Positions 2,651 through 32,085 of a DNA stretch of 32,085 nt are shown here, piece by piece. How positions within the stretch are numbered: the stretch's first letter is position 1; the number at the start of each line of letters is the position of its first letter. Made by a program: the position numbers and the translations under genes. This DNA is from Deltaproteobacteria bacterium. Its GTDB lineage: Bacteria > Myxococcota_A > Polyangia > HGW-17 > SLPX01. The stretch spans positions 1-32,085 of the forward strand of contig JAGGXR010000114.1 of assembly GCA_021162935.1 (NCBI GenBank). Reading direction: 5' to 3'. The notes below the pieces were generated by a model. It was not told where the DNA came from. It did not search any database and saw only the letters and a program-made list of their open reading frames with translations.

Positions 2651-4300
2651 ATGGCTCGTATCTGCCCCATATGCCATACGTCCTGGCCCGATGACATGAA
2701 GTTCTGTCCCCACGACGGCCAAAACCTGGAGGCACCTACCAATGACTGGGACGCCATCGTGGCCCAGGCCGCCCCGAGACGAAAGCCGAGCCACGCGGTC
2801 GAGCCGGGAGACACCCTGGGCCAATACCATCTTCTCAGCCGAATCGGTGAAGGTGGCATGGGAGCGGTGTTCAAAGCAGAGCATCAACTTCTCGGACGCC
2901 AGGTCGCGGTCAAAGTCCTCCTCGGTGAGTTGAACGACAACCGCGAGGTGGTGCAGCGTTTTTTCAACGAGGCGCGAGCCGTCAACAAAATCCAGCATCC
3001 CAACATCGTAGACATCACAGATTTCGTCGAGTCAACGGACCGGGCTCCCGCGTTCATGGTCATGGAACTCATCGATGGGCGATGCCTGGCGGACGTCATT
3101 GACGAACAGGGCCCGCTTGCGCTCGAACATGCAGTCTCCATCGCTCGGCAGGTCTGTGACGCCATGGCCGAGGTGCACCGCAACGAAATCGTACACCGGG
3201 ACCTGAAAACCGAAAACATCATGCTCCTGAACCCGAATCTGGATCGAGCAAAGCTGCTCGACTTCGGGATCGCCAAGTTCCTTGCAACCGAAAAGGCATT
3301 CCTCAAGACGGCGACAGGACAAACCATCGGCACGCCCGAGTACATGGCACCAGAACAGATCCGCGGCAAGGAGGTGGATAAACGAACAGACATCTATGCA
3401 ATGGGGATCATCCTTTATGAGATGCTGACCGGAACGCTTCCTTTCAAGGCCACCAATCTCGGAGATCTCTTCACTCTCCAGTTGAGCCGAAGGCCAACGC
3501 CGCCATCACAAGTCCTCACGGAACACGGCCGCACAGGCATCCCTCCTGCCATCGAATCCATTGTCCTGACCTGCCTGGAAAAGGATCCCGATGCCAGGAT
3601 CCAGACCATGGACGAACTCTCGCAACGGCTCGAATCTGCCCTGGACGACGACGGTGAAATCACGGCTGTGACATCGCTGACGCCGGCCAGTCCCCGAGGA
3701 CACAAAGTCCTCGTCGTGAGCCTGATTGCCGCTGTTGCTGTCCTGGCGGTGTCTGCCATGACGATTCTGCGGTATCATCGCGGTGCCGAACGAGATGCCG
3801 ACAGGCAGGAACCGTCACGCAGCGCCAAGACGGATGGACGGCCGCCCGAGCAGAAGGCCGTCGATGCCGCCACCAGGGCTCCTGCGATGCCCAATGGTAC
3901 GACACAGGATGCTTCGTCCGGAAAGGCTGGGATGACGGGCAGCAATCGGAAACATCCGGCAGGCCCGACGGCGACGAAACAGCCGCCCCCTCCGCGAAAG
4001 GTGACCATTGCAACGAAACCCGCCCATTCCTTGATCTTCCGCAAAAGTGACGGAGCCTTCCTGGGCCAGGCCCCCATCTCGGTCGCTGTCCATGGCCAGG
4101 CCCTACTCATCAAAAAACAAGGATACAGGACCGTCGAGATTTCCGTCACGACCGAAACGAAACCCACACTGTCCATTGCTCTCAAAAGGCTCCGACACCG
4201 ACGGCATCGTCACTCACGACGACACGGCGGACGCACGCAGGGTTCCTCTGCAGGAACCGACACTTGGGGAACCGTCAATCCCTTCAAAAAAGGGAAATAA
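2651..4300 (+). CDS. transmembrane Ser/Thr protein kinase with N-terminal zinc ribbon and PEGA-like C-terminal domain
   Basis: This 549-residue protein begins with a zinc ribbon (C5, C8, C19, with H21/D22 as a likely fourth ligand), an arrangement common in deltaproteobacterial kinases. A complete Hanks-type kinase domain follows: GEGGMG glycine loop near residue 66, VAVK lysine K88, HRD at 182-184 (HRDLKTEN, with T replacing the usual P), DFG at 204-206 and GTPEYMAPEQ. All catalytic residues are present, so it should be active. A single membrane helix lies near residues 353-373. After a low-complexity linker comes a PEGA-like beta domain near residues 450-515, expected outside the inner membrane, then a very basic stretch and the tail GTVNPFKKGK. 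It is followed after 5 bp by a second kinase and is probably cotranscribed with it from the promoter at 2547. Substrates are unknown. Confidence 0.92.
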   Translation: MARICPICHTSWPDDMKFCPHDGQNLEAPTNDWDAIVAQAAPRRKPSHAVEPGDTLGQYHLLSRIGEGGMGAVFKAEHQLLGRQVAVKVLLGELNDNREVVQRFFNEARAVNKIQHPNIVDITDFVESTDRAPAFMVMELIDGRCLADVIDEQGPLALEHAVSIARQVCDAMAEVHRNEIVHRDLKTENIMLLNPNLDRAKLLDFGIAKFLATEKAFLKTATGQTIGTPEYMAPEQIRGKEVDKRTDIYAMGIILYEMLTGTLPFKATNLGDLFTLQLSRRPTPPSQVLTEHGRTGIPPAIESIVLTCLEKDPDARIQTMDELSQRLESALDDDGEITAVTSLTPASPRGHKVLVVSLIAAVAVLAVSAMTILRYHRGAERDADRQEPSRSAKTDGRPPEQKAVDAATRAPAMPNGTTQDASSGKAGMTGSNRKHPAGPTATKQPPPPRKVTIATKPAHSLIFRKSDGAFLGQAPISVAVHGQALLIKKQGYRTVEISVTTETKPTLSIALKRLRHRRHRHSRRHGGRTQGSSAGTDTWGTVNPFKKGK

Positions 4301-4305
4301 CGCCC

Positions 4306-5823
4306 ATGGGTGAACCACGACATTCCACGCTGGAACCTGGCCAGCAGATTGGCCCCTATCGCATCCAACGCCTCATTGGCGAAGGCGGCATGGCAGTCGT
4401 GTATCTGGCCGAACACGTCACCTTGGAACGACGAGTCGCCGTCAAGGTGCTCCGTTCGTCCTATGCCTCACGTACCGATGCGGTGCGCAGCTTCTTCGAA
4501 GAGGCCCGCGTCGCCAGCCAACTCAACCATTCCCACATCGTTCAAGTGACAGACCTCATCGTGGAACCAGGGCTGGCTGCCTGCATCATGGAATACCTCG
4601 AAGGCCGCACCCTGACGCAACGAATATCGCAAGAGGGGAAACTCCCGATTCGAGACGCCCTGTGGATCGCTCACCAGGTAGCCGACGCCATGATGGCCGC
4701 GCACGAGCATGGCGTCATCCACCGGGACATCAAGCCATCAAACGTCTTTCTCGCCCGGGACAGACGGCAGACCGAAGTGGCCAAATTGCTCGATTTCGGC
4801 ATTGCCCAGCTCAACTCGAATGCCATGCTCCAAGGCGGGAGCCTGTCTGGACAACAGGCGGGAACACCCGCGTACATGTCGCCCGAACAGTTTCAGAACG
4901 ATGACGTGGACGAACGGTCGGACATCTATTCGCTCGGTGCCGTGCTGTACGAAATGATGACCGGCCGTCCGCCGTTCGAGGCAAAAACATCTGCTGAATA
5001 TGCCTACAAGCACACATCGATCCAGCCCACGCCACCTCATCAAGCGACGACTGGACCAACTCGAATTCCCAGGGACTGTTCCCGTGTGGTCATGAAGTGC
5101 CTGGCCAAAAAGCCCGAGGAGCGATACCAAAACGCCAGGAGCCTCATGGATGACATCGATCGGGCTGCCAAGGGCACGGGGGTCACCTTTCGGAACGGCA
5201 CATCGCCCCTCCTGATCGCGACGCCCCCGAACTGGACACCCCTTCTGTGGATCGTTGGCATCGTGTCAGCCATTGCGGTCAGCGGTATCGTTGGAGTCCA
5301 TGTCCTGTTCGGAAGTGATGGGGAACCGAATCATCCCCAAAAGTCGTCGGCCACCGTCTCGCCGAACGTCGGCGACGACGCAGAAGTACCCCAGACGAAG
5401 GCCGTGACCACGCCCCCTGTTTCCAGACCTCGGTCCGAACGACAGACGGGCCGATTGGGGGTATCCCAACCGAGGCAGACATCCGCGATGGGACGCGCCA
5501 ATCCTTCTTCAGAAAATCAACGAGCGACGATCACCATCCACATCGTCTCGCGACCAGCAGGTGCGGAGGTCCACAGAATTTCACCAAATCCTGGATTGCT
5601 GGGGATCACGCCCTTGGACATTCGGATCCCTCGCACGAGCCGCGTATGGGTCATCGATATCGTTGGATCCGAACGGCGATCCCGCCGCATTCGATTTTCC
5701 TGCAACCGGAACGTTTTCCGCTCCGTGCGGCTCCTGCCGATCCACCGCCACGGCGACCACAGGCACCAGAAGCCCCGACACATCCAAGACACTTCCGGAA
5801 CCGTCAATCCGTTCCAAAAGTGA
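4306..5823 (+). CDS. transmembrane Ser/Thr protein kinase with PEGA-like C-terminal domain
   Basis: This is a 505-residue protein. The ATG at 4306 is chosen over an in-frame TTG at 4264 that would overlap the upstream kinase; AGGGAA lies about 10 nt before it. The kinase domain is complete: GEGGMA loop, VAVK K47, HRD at 139-141 (HRDIKPSN), DFG at 163-165 and GTPAYMSPEQ. One membrane helix (LLWIVGIVSAIAVSGIVG) lies near residues 311-333. The outer part has a linker and a PEGA-like domain (RPAGAEVHR followed by a GITPLDIRIP segment). It ends in GTVNPFQK, nearly the same tail as the upstream kinase. Adjacency and the shared tail suggest the two work on the same pathway or with the same partner, possibly by duplication. 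It lacks the zinc ribbon of its neighbour. Confidence 0.92.
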   Translation: MGEPRHSTLEPGQQIGPYRIQRLIGEGGMAVVYLAEHVTLERRVAVKVLRSSYASRTDAVRSFFEEARVASQLNHSHIVQVTDLIVEPGLAACIMEYLEGRTLTQRISQEGKLPIRDALWIAHQVADAMMAAHEHGVIHRDIKPSNVFLARDRRQTEVAKLLDFGIAQLNSNAMLQGGSLSGQQAGTPAYMSPEQFQNDDVDERSDIYSLGAVLYEMMTGRPPFEAKTSAEYAYKHTSIQPTPPHQATTGPTRIPRDCSRVVMKCLAKKPEERYQNARSLMDDIDRAAKGTGVTFRNGTSPLLIATPPNWTPLLWIVGIVSAIAVSGIVGVHVLFGSDGEPNHPQKSSATVSPNVGDDAEVPQTKAVTTPPVSRPRSERQTGRLGVSQPRQTSAMGRANPSSENQRATITIHIVSRPAGAEVHRISPNPGLLGITPLDIRIPRTSRVWVIDIVGSERRSRRIRFSCNRNVFRSVRLLPIHRHGDHRHQKPRHIQDTSGTVNPFQK

Positions 5824-6774: not shown

Positions 6775-9006
6775 ATGAAACATATCATTATGACAGCGCT
6801 CGTCGTGGGATTGAGCTTGGGGAACTTCGCCTGCGGAGGCAAATCCAGTTCAGACAACGTCCAAATAACGGGAATTCGACTCACCATCCGATTCGACCCC
6901 ACGGTCCTGACGCTCGACCACGTCCGGATCGAAGGATATGACACCCAGGACAGCACCGAGGTCTTTCCAGCGGGCGAATTACCCCAAACTGCTTCAGGGA
7001 TCCTGACATCGGGTATGGAAACCGCGGTCATCCTTCTCCCGGACAACCTGTCCGGCAGGGAGATCCTTATCAAGGTTTGGGGCAAAAAGGGCCAAGACAT
7101 TACAGCCTACGGCAACACCACCGTGGTCCTCGAACGCGGTGTGATCACCGATGCCGAGGTCAACCTGGACGCACCGCCGGTCTGTGGCGATGGAACAGTG
7201 ACCCAAGTCGAGGAAATCTGCGACACGGCCATTCCACAAGGACAAAGCGGCGCGTGCCCCCAGGACTGCGACGATCAAGACGTCTGCACCACCGACACCA
7301 TGAACGCCCCGAACACCTGCCAGGCCTCGTGCCACCATGCGACCATCAAGACCTGCATCCATGGAGACGGCTGCTGTCCTGACGGATGCGAGCCAGCCAC
7401 GGACAGCGACTGTGCCGCTGTCTGCGGCGACGGTCTCATCGGAGAAGGTGAAACCTGTGACACGGGAATTTCACCTGGCCAAGCCGGGGCCTGCCCCACG
7501 GACTGCGACGACGGCAACCCTTGCACCACGGACAAACTGGTAGGCCAAGGATCCTGCCAGGCTCACTGCACATCCGACCCGGTCACCGACTTCGTGGGAG
7601 GAGACAACTGCTGCCCGCAGGGCGGCACCTCCCTCAACGACACCGACTGCCCGATCACCTGCGGAAACGGCGCCCAGGAGGCTGGTGAACAATGCGACGT
7701 GGCCATTCCGGCCGGACAGTTGGGTGCCTGCCCGACGAACTGCGACGACAGCGACCCATGCACCACCGACACGCTCTACGATGAAGACTCCTGCGAGGCG
7801 CGCTGCGGCCACCAGGTCATCACGGACTTCGTGGCCGGCGATTCCTGTTGCCCAGAGGGAGCCAACAGCACGCAGGACTCGGATTGTCCGGCGGTCTGCG
7901 GAAATGAGGTCGTCGAGGAAGGCGAAACCTGCGATGCCAGCATCCTGACCGGACCGGGTACCTGCCCTCAGACAGCCTCGGATTGTGACGACCAATTGTC
8001 CTGCACCATCGACTCGGTCGCTCACCAGGGGACCTGCCAAGCGGTCTGCCAAAATACCCCTATCGTTTCGTGTCAGGACAACGACGGCTGCTGTCCGGAA
8101 AACTGCACGGATTCAACAGACAACGATTGTGCTGCAACGCCGACCTGCGGCAACGGCGCTGTCGATTCCGATGAGACCTGCGACATCGCCATTTCACAGG
8201 GACAGCCCGGCGCTTGCCCAACGAGCTGCGACGACAGCGACCCCTGCACCACCGACACGCTCGTGGGCGACGGCACGTGCGAGGCCCACTGCACGAACGA
8301 CGAGATTGCCTGCACCGATGGTGACGGCTGCTGTCCGACAGGGTGCAACAACAACACGGACGACGACTGTGCAGCGGTCTGTGGAAACGGTGTGGTCGAA
8401 CCAAACGACCCGATCAACCCGGAAACCTGTGACACGGGCATCCCGGCCGAAGAAAGTGGTTCCTGCCCCACGAGCTGTAGCGATGGGGAGGCCTGCACCA
8501 GCGACACCCTGACTGGAACGGGCTGCCAGATCGCATGTGCATACGATCCAATCACGTCCTGCACGAGCAACGACGGCTGCTGCCCGAGCGACTGCTCGCT
8601 CGCCAACGATGGGGACCTGGACTGCCCGGGTTGTGGTAATGCGCGTCTGGAGACCAACCTGGGTGAAGAATGCGACGACGGGAACGCAGCGAACCTGGAC
8701 GGCTGCACCACGTCATGCACCACCCAGTCGGGCCAAATCGGCGACCCCTGCAATTCGAGCAACGATTGTAACAGCATGCTGACCTGCTTGACAGGATCTT
8801 CCGTGCCAGGAGGATACTGCTCCCAAAAAGACTGTATTCCATCCGTGACTCCCTGCCCGGACAACGCTGTCTGCACGGACCAACTGACCACGGGGCCTAC
8901 CTCGGCCTGTGCCGAGCCCTGCCAGGCGGACACGGACTGCCGCTGGAACGAAGACTACAAGTGCCGGAACGCCGGCAACGGCAACAAGGCCTGCCTCCCG
9001 GACTAG
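6775..9006 (+). CDS. exported cysteine-rich protein with six tandem ~80-residue repeats and a DUF4215-like motif
   Basis: This is a 743-residue protein. The ATG at 6775 is chosen because GGAGG is 5 nt upstream. A hydrophobic N-terminus ending LGNFACGGKSSS suggests export, possibly as a lipoprotein with an imperfect lipobox. A domain of about 110 residues precedes six repeats, each opening with a C-G-(N/D) segment and GE(T/Q)CD, then GACP..CDD..PCTTD, a CCP pair and a closing D-C. A seventh segment has the pattern CDDGNAANLDGCTTSC, as in the Myxococcus cysteine-rich DUF4215 repeat. The C-terminus has further spaced cysteines (DPCNSSNDC, CQADTDC). Repeats 1 and 4-6 carry twelve cysteines; repeats 2 and 3 carry ten. 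Such proteins are usually disulphide-stabilised and extracellular. No enzyme motif was seen. Function is unknown; adhesion or a surface role is inference. Confidence 0.85.
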   Translation: MKHIIMTALVVGLSLGNFACGGKSSSDNVQITGIRLTIRFDPTVLTLDHVRIEGYDTQDSTEVFPAGELPQTASGILTSGMETAVILLPDNLSGREILIKVWGKKGQDITAYGNTTVVLERGVITDAEVNLDAPPVCGDGTVTQVEEICDTAIPQGQSGACPQDCDDQDVCTTDTMNAPNTCQASCHHATIKTCIHGDGCCPDGCEPATDSDCAAVCGDGLIGEGETCDTGISPGQAGACPTDCDDGNPCTTDKLVGQGSCQAHCTSDPVTDFVGGDNCCPQGGTSLNDTDCPITCGNGAQEAGEQCDVAIPAGQLGACPTNCDDSDPCTTDTLYDEDSCEARCGHQVITDFVAGDSCCPEGANSTQDSDCPAVCGNEVVEEGETCDASILTGPGTCPQTASDCDDQLSCTIDSVAHQGTCQAVCQNTPIVSCQDNDGCCPENCTDSTDNDCAATPTCGNGAVDSDETCDIAISQGQPGACPTSCDDSDPCTTDTLVGDGTCEAHCTNDEIACTDGDGCCPTGCNNNTDDDCAAVCGNGVVEPNDPINPETCDTGIPAEESGSCPTSCSDGEACTSDTLTGTGCQIACAYDPITSCTSNDGCCPSDCSLANDGDLDCPGCGNARLETNLGEECDDGNAANLDGCTTSCTTQSGQIGDPCNSSNDCNSMLTCLTGSSVPGGYCSQKDCIPSVTPCPDNAVCTDQLTTGPTSACAEPCQADTDCRWNEDYKCRNAGNGNKACLPD
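7180..8628 (+). repeat. six in-frame repeats of about 240 bp encoding cysteine-rich modules
   Basis: Six head-to-tail units begin with VCG or TCG. The best conserved parts encode GACPT.CDDSDPCTTDTL and the CCP pair. Spacing is roughly 230-250 bp. The units have diverged well beyond recent duplication, so this is an old internal repeat. Confidence 0.85.
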
Positions 9007-14932: not shown

Positions 14933-15919
14933 ATGAACGATGGACACATGCAAAACATGAATCGAAAAGCGATATTCATTCCTTTTGGACTTCTCGCGGC
15001 GGGTTTGATGACGAATGCCTGCAACGCCAAATTTCCAATTTCTCTCCTACATAAAGATGCGAGCACGGATGCCGCCCAGCAGGACGCAAGTACGTTGGAC
15101 AGTGCGTTGCAGGACGGACAAACCATCGATGCAAACCTGGATGCATCGATCCAGGACGGAACCGTGGACGCAGCGCCCGTAGACGGCCAGACTACCGATG
15201 CCGCCGACGTGGATGCCGCGGGGGTCTGCGGGAACAGCACGGTGGAATCAGGCGAAACCTGTGACGACGGCAATACAACGAGCGGAGACGGCTGCAGTTC
15301 GAGTTGCCAGGTCGAATGCTCCAACGGATCCACCACGGACTGCAATCCCTCTGGAGAAACCAAGATTCCTACTTCGGCTTTCGTGGACTCGGATCCCCCG
15401 GCCGGATTCATTCAATGTGCTGGATTCGAGAATACGACAAACGATGACGTGGGGCCCAACTGGGATGCCAATTGCTTCGGAGCCGTCCAACATCTCCGCA
15501 TCCGATATTGGGACTCCAGCGCCAACCCATGGACCTTGATGGGCGACGCCACCCTCGACCCGACCAGTCTGGCCACCTATGCAACGCAGGTCTTCGATGC
15601 GACGAACCATGGAGGCACCCAAGGTGTGCTGGCCACACAGGGAGTCACCATACTCAAAGACGATCCAACTGCGAGCACGGTGAGCGACTGGGTCTGCAAC
15701 CAGGGGCATGCAAACAATGAATATGCCGCCTCGGACCTATACCTGGGCAACCAGGCATCCGACCACATGCTCATGGTGTGTGGATACAGCGCCTCCGACG
15801 ACGCTTCGGCCCATTGTAGCGACCGGAAGGAACTGCTCTTCACGCCCACGGTTTATGAGCATTGCAGCCACGGCCAGGGCCCCATGGACCTTGCCGTGGC
15901 CATTTATGTCGAAAAGTAG
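14933..15919 (+). CDS. exported lipoprotein-like protein with one DUF4215 cysteine motif
   Basis: This protein has up to 328 residues; in-frame ATGs at 14933, 14948 and 14957 are all possible starts, with a TGGGGA about 10 nt before the first. A hydrophobic N-terminus (AIFIPFGLLAAGLMTNACN) suggests a lipoprotein with a non-canonical lipobox. A linker rich in Asp, Ala, Gln and Thr follows, then a DUF4215-type motif (GETCDDGNTTSGDGCSSSC), as also seen at the end of the 743-residue cysteine-rich protein. The C-terminal 190 residues are a probable beta-rich domain with several cysteines (FIQCAGFEN, DWVCNQGH, LMVCGYS, YEHCSHGQG) that I do not recognise. It is expected on the outside of the cell. 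Function is unknown. Confidence 0.75.
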   Translation: MNDGHMQNMNRKAIFIPFGLLAAGLMTNACNAKFPISLLHKDASTDAAQQDASTLDSALQDGQTIDANLDASIQDGTVDAAPVDGQTTDAADVDAAGVCGNSTVESGETCDDGNTTSGDGCSSSCQVECSNGSTTDCNPSGETKIPTSAFVDSDPPAGFIQCAGFENTTNDDVGPNWDANCFGAVQHLRIRYWDSSANPWTLMGDATLDPTSLATYATQVFDATNHGGTQGVLATQGVTILKDDPTASTVSDWVCNQGHANNEYAASDLYLGNQASDHMLMVCGYSASDDASAHCSDRKELLFTPTVYEHCSHGQGPMDLAVAIYVEK

Positions 15920-22733: not shown

Positions 22734-25010
22734 CTATCGTTGTCCTGCAGCCGATCGTCTTCCTACGGCCGATCGTCCTCCTACGGCCGGTCGTCTTCCT
22801 ACGGCCGGTCGTCTTCCTACGGCCGGTCGTCTCAAACGCTCCCTACGATCATGCTCTCGAACCACGGACAGCGCCTCCCGAATGCGGTCATAGACACGGT
22901 CGGAAATGGGCACAAATGATGTGATCTGGAAGTTCCCCCCCAGAGGATGCTTGCGCAGCCGTTTTTCATCCGTGCCGAGAACCGCGTACGTGACCCACTG
23001 GCGTACCGTAGCCGACATCTTGGGGGAAAGCACGATCACATCCTGAGGAATGGGCCCAGTCGGGGCCACGACCCGTACTCCACCCGGAATGACGACCTGC
23101 CGTCGGTAGTAGACCATGTTGAAGACGGCTGCGGCGTCACAGACGCCTTTCGCAAGCAAACCCAAAGCTCGATCATGGCTGCCGGCCATGATCGACTTGG
23201 AAAAAAGCTGCTCCGGATCCAGGCCAGCCTTGAGCAGGAGCAGATAGGGCATCAGATACCCCGAAGTCGAATTCGACGACACCCAACACATGGTCTTTCC
23301 TTTGAGATCCTTGAGATGGAAAATGTGCCGATCGACCCTGCCCACGATGAAACCTTGGTAGGTGGCGCTGCGCGCCGATCGAATGGCCGCGACCAGGCGC
23401 AGGGATGGAAATCGCTCCTTGAGCTTGACGTACAGCAACGGAGAAATGAAGGCCAGATCCAGCCGACCATCCACCAAACGTCGACCGACAGAAACAGGAT
23501 CATCAAAGGTTTCCGGCAGCACCTCGACACCGCCGAGTTGCCCCTTGAGATGCTCTGCCAGATCCCTCATGACCTCGACGCCTTCCTTCTTCGGCATGTA
23601 CTCGCCCAATCCAAATCGAAGACGCGCATGGACCGGTCTGATCGGCCCTGACGAAGACGAAGCCGTCCAATGAAGCAACGCCCATCCGGCAAGGCCCAAT
23701 CCTGCCAGAAACAGCAACAGTCCCATCCAAACTCCCCGCCGCAACAACAGGGAACGACGTGTCTCTGAGACCGCCCTGGTCGTTGCAAGGGATGTCGCCT
23801 TCGAGCCCGTCTCGCGCACGGACAAGGAAGCAGCCACGGAACGCGATGAGGGCCGCCGACCGGAGTCGTCCATGGAATCCTCATCGTCGAAGTCGTCCAT
23901 CGAGTCATCACGGTCCCGAAGGCTGACCCTGCCGGGCGTCTCACATACCGTGGGAGTCCCGTCCTCACCTTCGGCCAGATTCCGATCCGTGGCCACCGTA
24001 TCCGACTGACCGACTGCCAGGACTTCGGTGCTGTGGAGCCCTGGTGCCGTCGCATCTCCTTCCAGTTCTTCGAGTTCCTCCATCTCGTCCCATGGCTCCC
24101 CTTCACCTAGGGGAACGAACGAAATGGTGACATCGATGTCGCTCACCCTCGCCAGATCCTCAGCAAATGCCTGGGCGTTCTGATACCGATGATCGATCTC
24201 CCGAGCCATGGCCGTCTCCACCACGGCCACCAACCCATCAGGGAGATCGGGACGCAACTCCTTGAGAGGCCTGGGGCTCTGAGCCAAAATCTTGGCAAGG
24301 ATCTGGTTGTAATTCGCCCCTCGGTAGGGGACTCTCCCCGCAAGGCATCGATACAGAATCGCCCCGAGCGCGTACAGGTCCGCCCGGTGATCCACGTTCT
24401 TGGCCCCCCGCGCCTGCTCGGGTGCCATGTAATGGGGCGTCCCCATGACCATGCCGGTCGCCGTCAGATCGCCTCCCGCCATATGGTAGGACTGGATCTT
24501 GGACACACCGAAATCCACCAATTTCACGAAATCCTGCTGCCCGGCACGTTCCACCAACAGGACATTCGCCGGCTTAAGGTCCCGATGGACGATGCCCCGA
24601 GCATGCACCGCGGATAAGGCGGACAAGGCCTGGATGGCAATACGGCTCGCCCTCTTATAATCGAGGATTCGAACCTCTTTGAGAAGATCCTGGAGGGTCC
24701 TTCCATCGAGCAACTCCATCACAATGAAAGGAGAACCGCCCTTGGGAGTCCCGAGATCCAGAATGTCCACGATGTGGTCATGCCCGGTCGATGCGGCCGC
24801 CACCGCCTCACGATGGAATCGTTCCACCGCCACCTCATTGTCCGCAAGATTGGCGTGCAGGAGTTTCACCGCCACACGGCGCTCGATGAGCAGGTTCTCC
24901 GCCTCGACCACCACACCCATCCCCCCCTTGCCCAGGAGACGGACAACGCGGTACTTGCCGTCGAGCACCTGACCGATCAGGCTCCCCTGCTCTTCAGATG
25001 AGTCGGGCAT
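22734..25010 (-). CDS. transmembrane Ser/Thr kinase fused to a PhnD-like extracytoplasmic binding domain
   Basis: This is a 758-residue protein. The ATG at 25010 is chosen because a G-rich box ending in AAG precedes it; an upstream GTG at 25070 is less likely. The kinase domain (about residues 18-285) is complete: GKGGMG, VAVK K49, HRD 142-144 (HRDLKPAN), DFG 166-168 and GTPHYMAPEQ. An acidic linker follows (EMEELEELEGD, DDSMDDFDDEDSMDD). One membrane helix is near 424-447. Residues 455-715 resemble the PhnD-like periplasmic binding family: LRFGLGEYMPKKEGVEV, DGRLDLAFISPLLYVKL, LKDLKGKTMCWVSSNSTSGYLMPY and LLAKGVCDAAAVFN. Members bind small oxyanions such as phosphonate or phosphate; the ligand here is unknown. 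The protein ends in a repetitive Arg/Pro/Ala/Val/Gly tail. It probably senses an external ligand and signals by phosphorylation. Confidence 0.88.
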   Translation of the reverse strand: MPDSSEEQGSLIGQVLDGKYRVVRLLGKGGMGVVVEAENLLIERRVAVKLLHANLADNEVAVERFHREAVAAASTGHDHIVDILDLGTPKGGSPFIVMELLDGRTLQDLLKEVRILDYKRASRIAIQALSALSAVHARGIVHRDLKPANVLLVERAGQQDFVKLVDFGVSKIQSYHMAGGDLTATGMVMGTPHYMAPEQARGAKNVDHRADLYALGAILYRCLAGRVPYRGANYNQILAKILAQSPRPLKELRPDLPDGLVAVVETAMAREIDHRYQNAQAFAEDLARVSDIDVTISFVPLGEGEPWDEMEELEELEGDATAPGLHSTEVLAVGQSDTVATDRNLAEGEDGTPTVCETPGRVSLRDRDDSMDDFDDEDSMDDSGRRPSSRSVAASLSVRETGSKATSLATTRAVSETRRSLLLRRGVWMGLLLFLAGLGLAGWALLHWTASSSSGPIRPVHARLRFGLGEYMPKKEGVEVMRDLAEHLKGQLGGVEVLPETFDDPVSVGRRLVDGRLDLAFISPLLYVKLKERFPSLRLVAAIRSARSATYQGFIVGRVDRHIFHLKDLKGKTMCWVSSNSTSGYLMPYLLLLKAGLDPEQLFSKSIMAGSHDRALGLLAKGVCDAAAVFNMVYYRRQVVIPGGVRVVAPTGPIPQDVIVLSPKMSATVRQWVTYAVLGTDEKRLRKHPLGGNFQITSFVPISDRVYDRIREALSVVREHDRRERLRRPAVGRRPAVGRRPAVGGRSAVGRRSAAGQR
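22751..22832. repeat. 18-bp tandem repeat, four copies plus a partial, inside the kinase C-terminus
   Basis: Units at 22751-22768, 22769-22786, 22787-22804 and 22805-22822 plus 10 bases are built on CCGRTCGTCTTCCTACGG. Because the unit is a multiple of three it adds six residues per copy (RRPAVG or GRSAVG type) to the end of the minus-strand kinase. Copies 3 and 4 are identical, which suggests recent change in number. Confidence 0.9.
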
Positions 25011-25384
25011 CACAGACTTCCCCCCCCATCTCGAAGCGACATTCGTGTCTGGTCGAAAAACAAAACGCAATGCTCACGGAGAAACCTCTCGTCCCGGATG
25101 CCGACATACAACCATGCGCATTGTCAAGCCATCCGGGCATGCCCGAACCCGCACCAACAGGGCACATGAATCAAGCATCAACTGCCGCAAGTTCAGTATC
25201 TTACTGTATGCCAGACCGCATGTGAACACAATAGCGCATCAACCCGCCAAATCCACCATCAGATCGTGCGGGCGGCGCTCATCACCGCCGCTGGGGACGA
25301 TCCGGCGGCCATATCGGGCATGACAAGCAGGAAAGGACGCCTCGGGCAGATTGGTGACCGGTTTGTCCTGTCAGGCTCCATCAA
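25011..25384. other. intergenic gap of about 370 bp without a supported gene
   Basis: It holds a run of eight C at 25020-25027 in the kinase leader, a 10-bp palindrome GGGCATGCCC at 25135-25144 and a 6-bp hairpin GCGGCG/CGCCGC at 25272-25291. A minus-strand TTGACA (25127-25122) has no good -10 at the right distance. Short open frames here lack homology that I recognise. Confidence 0.5.
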
Positions 25385-30455: not shown

Positions 30456-30512
30456 GGCCGGCTCCGTCAGGAATGGCCGGCTCCGTCAGGAATGGCCGGC
30501 TCCGTCAGGAAT
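30456..30512. repeat. 19-bp tandem repeat, three perfect copies
   Basis: GGCCGGCTCCGTCAGGAAT occurs at 30456-30474, 30475-30493 and 30494-30512. An excellent Shine-Dalgarno sequence, AAAGGAGG, follows at 30518-30525, ahead of the pseudokinase reading frame. Confidence 0.95.
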
Positions 30513-30595
30513 GGAACAAAGGAGGCTTGCGTCCGTTGGCGCCCCGAGACGAATCATCGCTCCCTCGCATCGCTGGATTGCGGCCCCTTCGAGCC

Positions 30596-32085
30596 ATGAC
30601 ATCGAAGGGGGGCATCACGATCTACGAAGGGGAACTGACGGCGCACCGAGCCGCCGACGGCCGACCAGGTCACGTCCGCATCCACGTCTTCGAAAAAAAG
30701 GCGGCACGCAGGCTCGACCAGGCCGAACTGATCCCGGAAATCCGGTCGGCGACCGGAATGGCCCCCCCCTCGGTTGCACGGATTGTTGCGTCTGGCCTCA
30801 TCCAGGACGAGCCGGGCGCCCTCCCTTCCTTCTACCTGGTCACCGAGTGGATGGAGGGACGAACCATCGACGCATACATGGGTGAGCATCCAAACGAGCC
30901 CATGGCCCCTTCGGAGGCCACACGCCTGATGGCTGCCATTGCCCGAGCCCTCGTGCTCATCGAACAGGACGAGCAGATCGCCTGGCCGTCCGGCCACGTG
31001 CGTCCCTCCACGGTCTGGATGCAGGACCTCGACCACGTGCGTATCGACAATCCCTGGCTCGAAACGGCAATTCTGACCTGCGCGGGATCCAACAAGAAGC
31101 AACTGTCGGCATCCCTTGCCTACATGGCCCCCGAACAGGTCAGCGGTCGTTCGGTGGACATGCGAACCGACGTGTTTTCTTGCGGCGTCCTCTTCTACGA
31201 ACTGCTGACAGCGAAGCGACTGTTCGATGCCACGAGTCGCAGCGGCATCGTATCCCAAATCAAGACAGGGCCCATCGTGCCCCCATCAAACGCCTGTCCC
31301 TGGATCGACTCGAAGATGGACCAACTCGTCCTCTGGGCCCTGGAACGCACACCTGATAAACGTCCCGATTCGGCAGCCGCATGGGAACAGGCTCTGCAGA
31401 CCTATCTCACCGCCGTCCATGGAGACGCCCAGCAGGGCGTTCGCGACAACAGCGACGCTGCTGGCGCCAGCAGCCCCGTCGGACAAAACCCCATGGGCAT
31501 CGTCCCTGCCGAGCCCCGGAACGAACGATCGAAAGCGCCCGATTCGATCGACCTGGCCATGGCGAATCCAGAACCGCCGGGCGAAACCCTGTCGCCCAAA
31601 CGCAGCGTGAAATCCGGGCAGGACCGAGCCCCTGCCCCGCAGCCGGAACCAGAGGCATCCAGAAACGTCTCTGCGCCCAATCGTCCCGATCGTCCCGCCC
31701 GACCCGACCTTCCCGACCGACCCGATCGTCCCGACCGACCCGACCGTCCCGACCGTCCCCAGGTTTCGAGTCGCACGGCACCCGCCCCGCAACCCCGCGA
31801 ACTTTCGGCGACCGTTCCGGCGGACGCACACCCGGACATGGTCACTGACATCACGAGAGCGGCTGGCGCAGCCTCCCTTCCATCTCACAGACGAGCAGAC
31901 GCGCAGGGCATGGGGCAAGACGGCCAACCTCGAAATGACGACATCGAAACATTCCATGCAGAAGCTGCTTCCCACGCCATGGCCCGAAACTCCAGCATCC
32001 TGATGGCTTGGCTTCCCGAAATCGTGATGTCCGTCCTCATTGCGGCGCTCATGCCCCTGGCCATCCTCATGGCCCAGTCCCATTC
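30596..32085 (+). CDS. Ser/Thr pseudokinase with RPD repeats and a membrane helix (3' end outside window)
   Basis: The frame is open from the ATG at 30596 to the window end, 496 codons. TTG codons at 30527 and 30536 are in frame after AAAGGAGG (30518-30525) and may be the real start, since the ATG has no ribosome-binding site. The C-lobe of a kinase is clear: YMAPEQVSGRSVDMRTDVFSCG, then YELLTAKRLF and ERTPDKRPDS. Catalytic residues are lost: no glycine loop, VAIK reads VRIH (H30), HRDLKPxN reads SGHVRPST (H134 in place of the catalytic Asp) and DFG reads DNP (151-153). A linker has seven or so Arg-Pro-Asp repeats (31680-31760). A membrane helix lies near 467-493. It probably binds or regulates partners instead of phosphorylating them. 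Confidence 0.85.
   Translation, partial: MTSKGGITIYEGELTAHRAADGRPGHVRIHVFEKKAARRLDQAELIPEIRSATGMAPPSVARIVASGLIQDEPGALPSFYLVTEWMEGRTIDAYMGEHPNEPMAPSEATRLMAAIARALVLIEQDEQIAWPSGHVRPSTVWMQDLDHVRIDNPWLETAILTCAGSNKKQLSASLAYMAPEQVSGRSVDMRTDVFSCGVLFYELLTAKRLFDATSRSGIVSQIKTGPIVPPSNACPWIDSKMDQLVLWALERTPDKRPDSAAAWEQALQTYLTAVHGDAQQGVRDNSDAAGASSPVGQNPMGIVPAEPRNERSKAPDSIDLAMANPEPPGETLSPKRSVKSGQDRAPAPQPEPEASRNVSAPNRPDRPARPDLPDRPDRPDRPDRPDRPQVSSRTAPAPQPRELSATVPADAHPDMVTDITRAAGAASLPSHRRADAQGMGQDGQPRNDDIETFHAEAASHAMARNSSILMAWLPEIVMSVLIAALMPLAILMAQSH

Follow-up and report, generated by a model that had tools for sequence, protein, structure and literature searches.

Two cysteines of a tandem repeat of about 79 residues occur together or are missing together throughout the homologues surveyed: among 669 repeats, 443 carry both, 226 carry neither and none carries a single one. 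The repeat was found in a lipoprotein-like protein encoded in a 32,085-nucleotide stretch of DNA from a Deltaproteobacteria bacterium (the window). Judged from this covariation, the cysteines of alignment columns 58 and 69 almost certainly bond to each other. Very probably they form a disulphide inside each repeat that carries them, an optional addition to a module whose other five disulphides are fixed; the array of these modules is likely the stalk of a surface lipoprotein. One bond is thus assigned, by prediction, in an uncharacterised six-disulphide module with relatives in 104 of the 318 genomes of the class. That bonded cysteines are gained and lost together is an established principle of disulphide connectivity, for which PMC3548674 cites Rubinstein and Fiser 2008; the principle is the same here and only the protein family is new. 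The pairing is ordinary co-evolution, long known in principle, and what is new is a well-supported prediction for an undescribed repeat.

Organization of the repeat protein

The features of the gene are listed in Table 1. Six tandem repeats of 78-84 residues each span positions 7180-8628. The protein contains 85 cysteines, one in the lipobox (Cys20), 68 in the repeats and 16 after them, so that 84 remain besides the lipidated one. The lipobox-like end, read by eye, is non-canonical with Asn at -3; signal peptides of the related proteins have similar ..GC/..AC endings. The head domain was modelled with pLDDT 90 and pTM 0.82.

Table 1. Features of the repeat protein gene in the window.
Feature	Position	Strand	Basis
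Lipoprotein-like protein gene, 743 aa (P0001)	6775..9006	+	
Signal peptide, lipobox-like end LGNFAC, Cys20	6775..6834	+	direct reading, homologues
Head domain, seven predicted beta strands	6844..7179	+	predicted structure
Repeat 1, 12 Cys; covarying Cys194 (7354-7356) and Cys205 (7387-7389)	7180..7419	+	
Repeat 2, 10 Cys; pair replaced by Phe273 (7591-7593) and Gly284 (7624-7626)	7420..7656	+	
Repeat 3, 10 Cys; pair replaced by Phe352 (7828-7830) and Ala363 (7861-7863)	7657..7893	+	
Repeat 4, 12 Cys; covarying Cys433 (8071-8073) and Cys444 (8104-8106)	7894..8142	+	
Repeat 5, 12 Cys; covarying Cys513 (8311-8313) and Cys524 (8344-8346)	8143..8376	+	
Repeat 6, 12 Cys; covarying Cys596 (8560-8562) and Cys607 (8593-8595)	8377..8628	+	
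TIGR02232 (myxo_disulf_rpt), one copy, 4 Cys	8629..8736	+	
Cys-rich tail, pattern unlike the repeats, 12 Cys	8737..9003	+	

When the six repeats (R1-R6) were aligned, ten cysteine columns were invariant. Columns 58 and 69, which are eleven apart and lie one on either side of the CC pair, hold Cys in R1, R4, R5 and R6 and have lost it together in R2 and R3, giving totals of 12, 10, 10, 12, 12 and 12. The repeat coordinates and cysteine counts given in an earlier note on this DNA agreed with the window sequence and the alignment. The note had also correctly placed a cysteine six residues before CC in the four 12-Cys repeats, and had read the replacements in R2 and R3 as Phe followed by Gly or Ala. 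The second cysteine that it described exists in the same four repeats, but the first Cys of CC lies five and not four residues before it; a distance of four holds only when counted from the second Cys of CC.

The six window repeats alone are weak evidence for pairing. The losses in R2 and R3 are probably one old inherited event, because same-order proteins have 10-Cys repeats at matching places in their arrays. Among them, the start-of-array pattern 12-10-10-12-12 (CooCC..) recurs in proteins with the same head domain (L005, L031, L006/L032). The nearest relatives of R2 are the second repeats of two such arrays and, equally close, a 10-Cys repeat further along a third one, and the Phe of R2 and R3 is also found in same-order homologues. 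Two fresh losses in R2 and R3 were rejected on account of this shared state at shared positions. The pairing put forward in the earlier note therefore draws its support from the wider survey; the strength it attached to two repeats was overstated, as these probably share one ancestral loss.

Joint presence and absence of the two cysteines in homologous repeats

Iterated searches with a profile of the six repeats raised the number of distinct homologous repeats from 279 to 518 and finally to 671. Two of these (L251 319-398 and L183 270-346), in both of which the CC pair was absent by eye, were set aside as misaligned. Cysteines were counted between anchors (column 50 to CC; CC to column 77), which makes small indels harmless. 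In a plain column count some repeats appeared to hold a single cysteine (L032, L045, L055, L133, L180 and others); in these the other Cys is present and shifted by an indel. Homologues with only one of the two cysteines, which the earlier note had named as evidence against pairing, were thus absent from the whole set.

The repeats come from 106 genomes or records, with an effective sequence number of 421 at 70% identity. Besides the genomes of the class, 52 of the 379 drawn from the phylum bear the repeat. Most relatives that bear a name are metagenome-assembled genomes of Myxococcales/Myxococcota; a few matches fall elsewhere, including archaea. Going by these relatives, the window probably derives from Myxococcota. 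The joint state of columns 58 and 69 is spread across taxonomic families, and 33 of the 106 genomes or records carry both 12-Cys and 10-Cys repeats. The cysteine total is 12 or 10 in 665 of 671 repeats, and the other ten cysteines are 98-100% conserved. Exceptions to the even number are L128 with 9 Cys (among the other ten only column 46 is missing) and L213 with 13.

The covariation check suggested in the earlier note gave a clear answer: by APC-corrected mutual information (0.90, z 13), columns 58/69 rank first of 3003 column pairs, above the pair 16-20, in which gaps often coincide. If the losses were independent at these frequencies, about 300 singletons would be expected by our own arithmetic, which ignores relatedness, as against the zero observed. 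In the 10-Cys class, 46 residue pairs replace the cysteines (Pro/Ala 88, Ala/Ala 34, Phe/Gly 18, etc.), and the residues between the two sites vary freely. Both cysteines switch between repeats that are 70-77% identical outside the sites, once within a single protein (L005, 75%). A FastTree tree was made of 467 repeats with columns 57-59 and 68-70 left out. It needs 45 state changes, every one of them joint; well-supported branches account for only 3 independent pairs, so that the tally of separate events is uncertain.

Alternatives to a bond within the repeat

According to the proposed scheme, the cysteine of column 58 would bond that of column 69 inside the same repeat, so that a 12-Cys repeat would form six bonds and a 10-Cys repeat five, the 58-69 bond acting as an optional staple. 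The two sites might instead be unpaired and have been inherited and carried along together in a single short tract as repeats were duplicated and converted, the joint loss then reflecting few events. This is consistent with the 10-Cys state of related proteins being tied to the place in the array (CooCC.., oooCoCCC), with the Phe that R2 and R3 share with same-order homologues, and with the small number of well-supported independent changes. We nevertheless consider it very unlikely, since no single-Cys intermediate occurs despite the many replacement combinations and the freely varying residues in between, and since, without pairing, later single losses should appear among the 443 two-Cys repeats.

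Joint loss would fit equally a two-ligand site at which both cysteines bind a metal or cofactor with no bond between them, and several acidic residues are seen nearby by direct reading. The remaining cysteines of this exported-type protein are, however, kept in an even-numbered pattern, the genome encodes thiol oxidases, and no third ligand disappears when the pair does: the columns that follow in strength of linkage to the state are far weaker and mostly gap columns. A metal site was rejected on these grounds as highly improbable. In a tandem array the pair could conceivably also link adjacent repeats or two separate chains; this would be the most improbable arrangement of all. Neighbouring repeats of unlike state meet at 64 junctions, and if column 58 were joined to column 69 of the following repeat, an odd cysteine would be left at each of them; inter-repeat bonds were rejected for this reason. 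Like-position bonds between chains would not force joint loss. Most simply, therefore, the predicted 58-69 bond lies within one repeat.

Two repeats of one genome (G031; L065, ORF residues 456-528, and L066, 383-456) lack both column 35 and column 64 and keep 58 and 69, which is only a hint that columns 35 and 64 might form a second disulphide. Five- and six-bond repeats might also be placed on purpose, their order, conserved in related proteins (e.g. CooCC), setting the local stiffness of the stalk or its protease or redox sensitivity; we regard this as unlikely. The natural versions of near-alike domains with and without one disulphide are useful for stability studies.

Predicted structure of the repeats

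R1-R2 was modelled by AlphaFold2 from 120 aligned tandem pairs (pLDDT 95, pTM 0.62). The model has one hairpin per repeat, formed by residues 37-42 and 50-55. Searched against solved structures with this two-repeat model, Foldseek returned nothing better than E 5.7 and VIA-align nothing at Z >= 2. PDB sequences gave no good match to the repeat profile.

Relation to known cysteine-rich repeats and the putative stalk

The whole protein matches TIGR02232 in six stretches (27.9 bits, E 1.5e-6), above the curated cut-off of 20.8 bits, the best stretch being residues 619-654, the copy that follows repeat 6. Taken singly, three of the six repeats match this model weakly (best E 0.037) and one of six reaches no better than E 0.22 with Pfam DUF4215; the DUF4215 profile did not match the whole protein at E up to 10. 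Both models are resembled by the first third of each repeat (CGNG..E.GE.CD...CP..C). The models are 38 (TIGR02232) and 47 (DUF4215) positions long, whereas the unit described here has about 79 residues and 12 or 10 Cys. Its second part is covered by no Pfam model and was not found as a stand-alone unit in the loci, and the unit as a whole has no model of its own in Pfam or NCBIfam. A literature search on TIGR02232/DUF4215 found no paper in the collection searched.

By analogy, a stalk is the likeliest role of the repeat array, because the Cys-rich repeats of TraA of Myxococcus xanthus (TIGR04201) have been proposed to be a rigid stalk presenting a head domain (PMC3325183). TraA, a myxobacterial surface protein, has tandem Cys-rich repeats in common with the protein described here. 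It differs in that the present protein and its single repeats have no match to the TIGR04201 profile at E up to 10, and no PA14 domain was found in the protein with Pfam profiles. We infer the S-S bond, the surface exposure and the stalk role; the array would then act as a rigid stalk of the surface lipoprotein and would resist proteases.

Genome setting

The host genome has 3 VKOR matches and 15 DsbA-like matches. Because these oxidases are encoded, exported cysteines are probably oxidised in this genome, and the array would be oxidised in the periplasm by VKOR/DsbA-type enzymes. On three contigs (C136, C60 and C72) the VKOR match adjoins a DsbA match on the same strand and the open frames that hold them are equal in length, an arrangement that resembles fused VKOR-DsbA oxidases.

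The genome contains at least 150 matches to TIGR02232 (150 of 413 candidates scored). One further Cys-rich protein with a TIGR02232/DUF4215-like stretch is encoded in the window itself (14933-15916, +). The genes neighbouring the repeat protein encode Ser/Thr kinases, a TPR protein, an EAL protein and a uracil-DNA glycosylase, and give no pointer to its function. Four Ser/Thr kinase domains lie within the 32 kb (2651-5820, 22734-25070 and 30473-32083). At 22734-25070 (-), Ser/Thr protein kinase and periplasmic phosphonate-binding-protein domains are combined in one frame of 778 residues.
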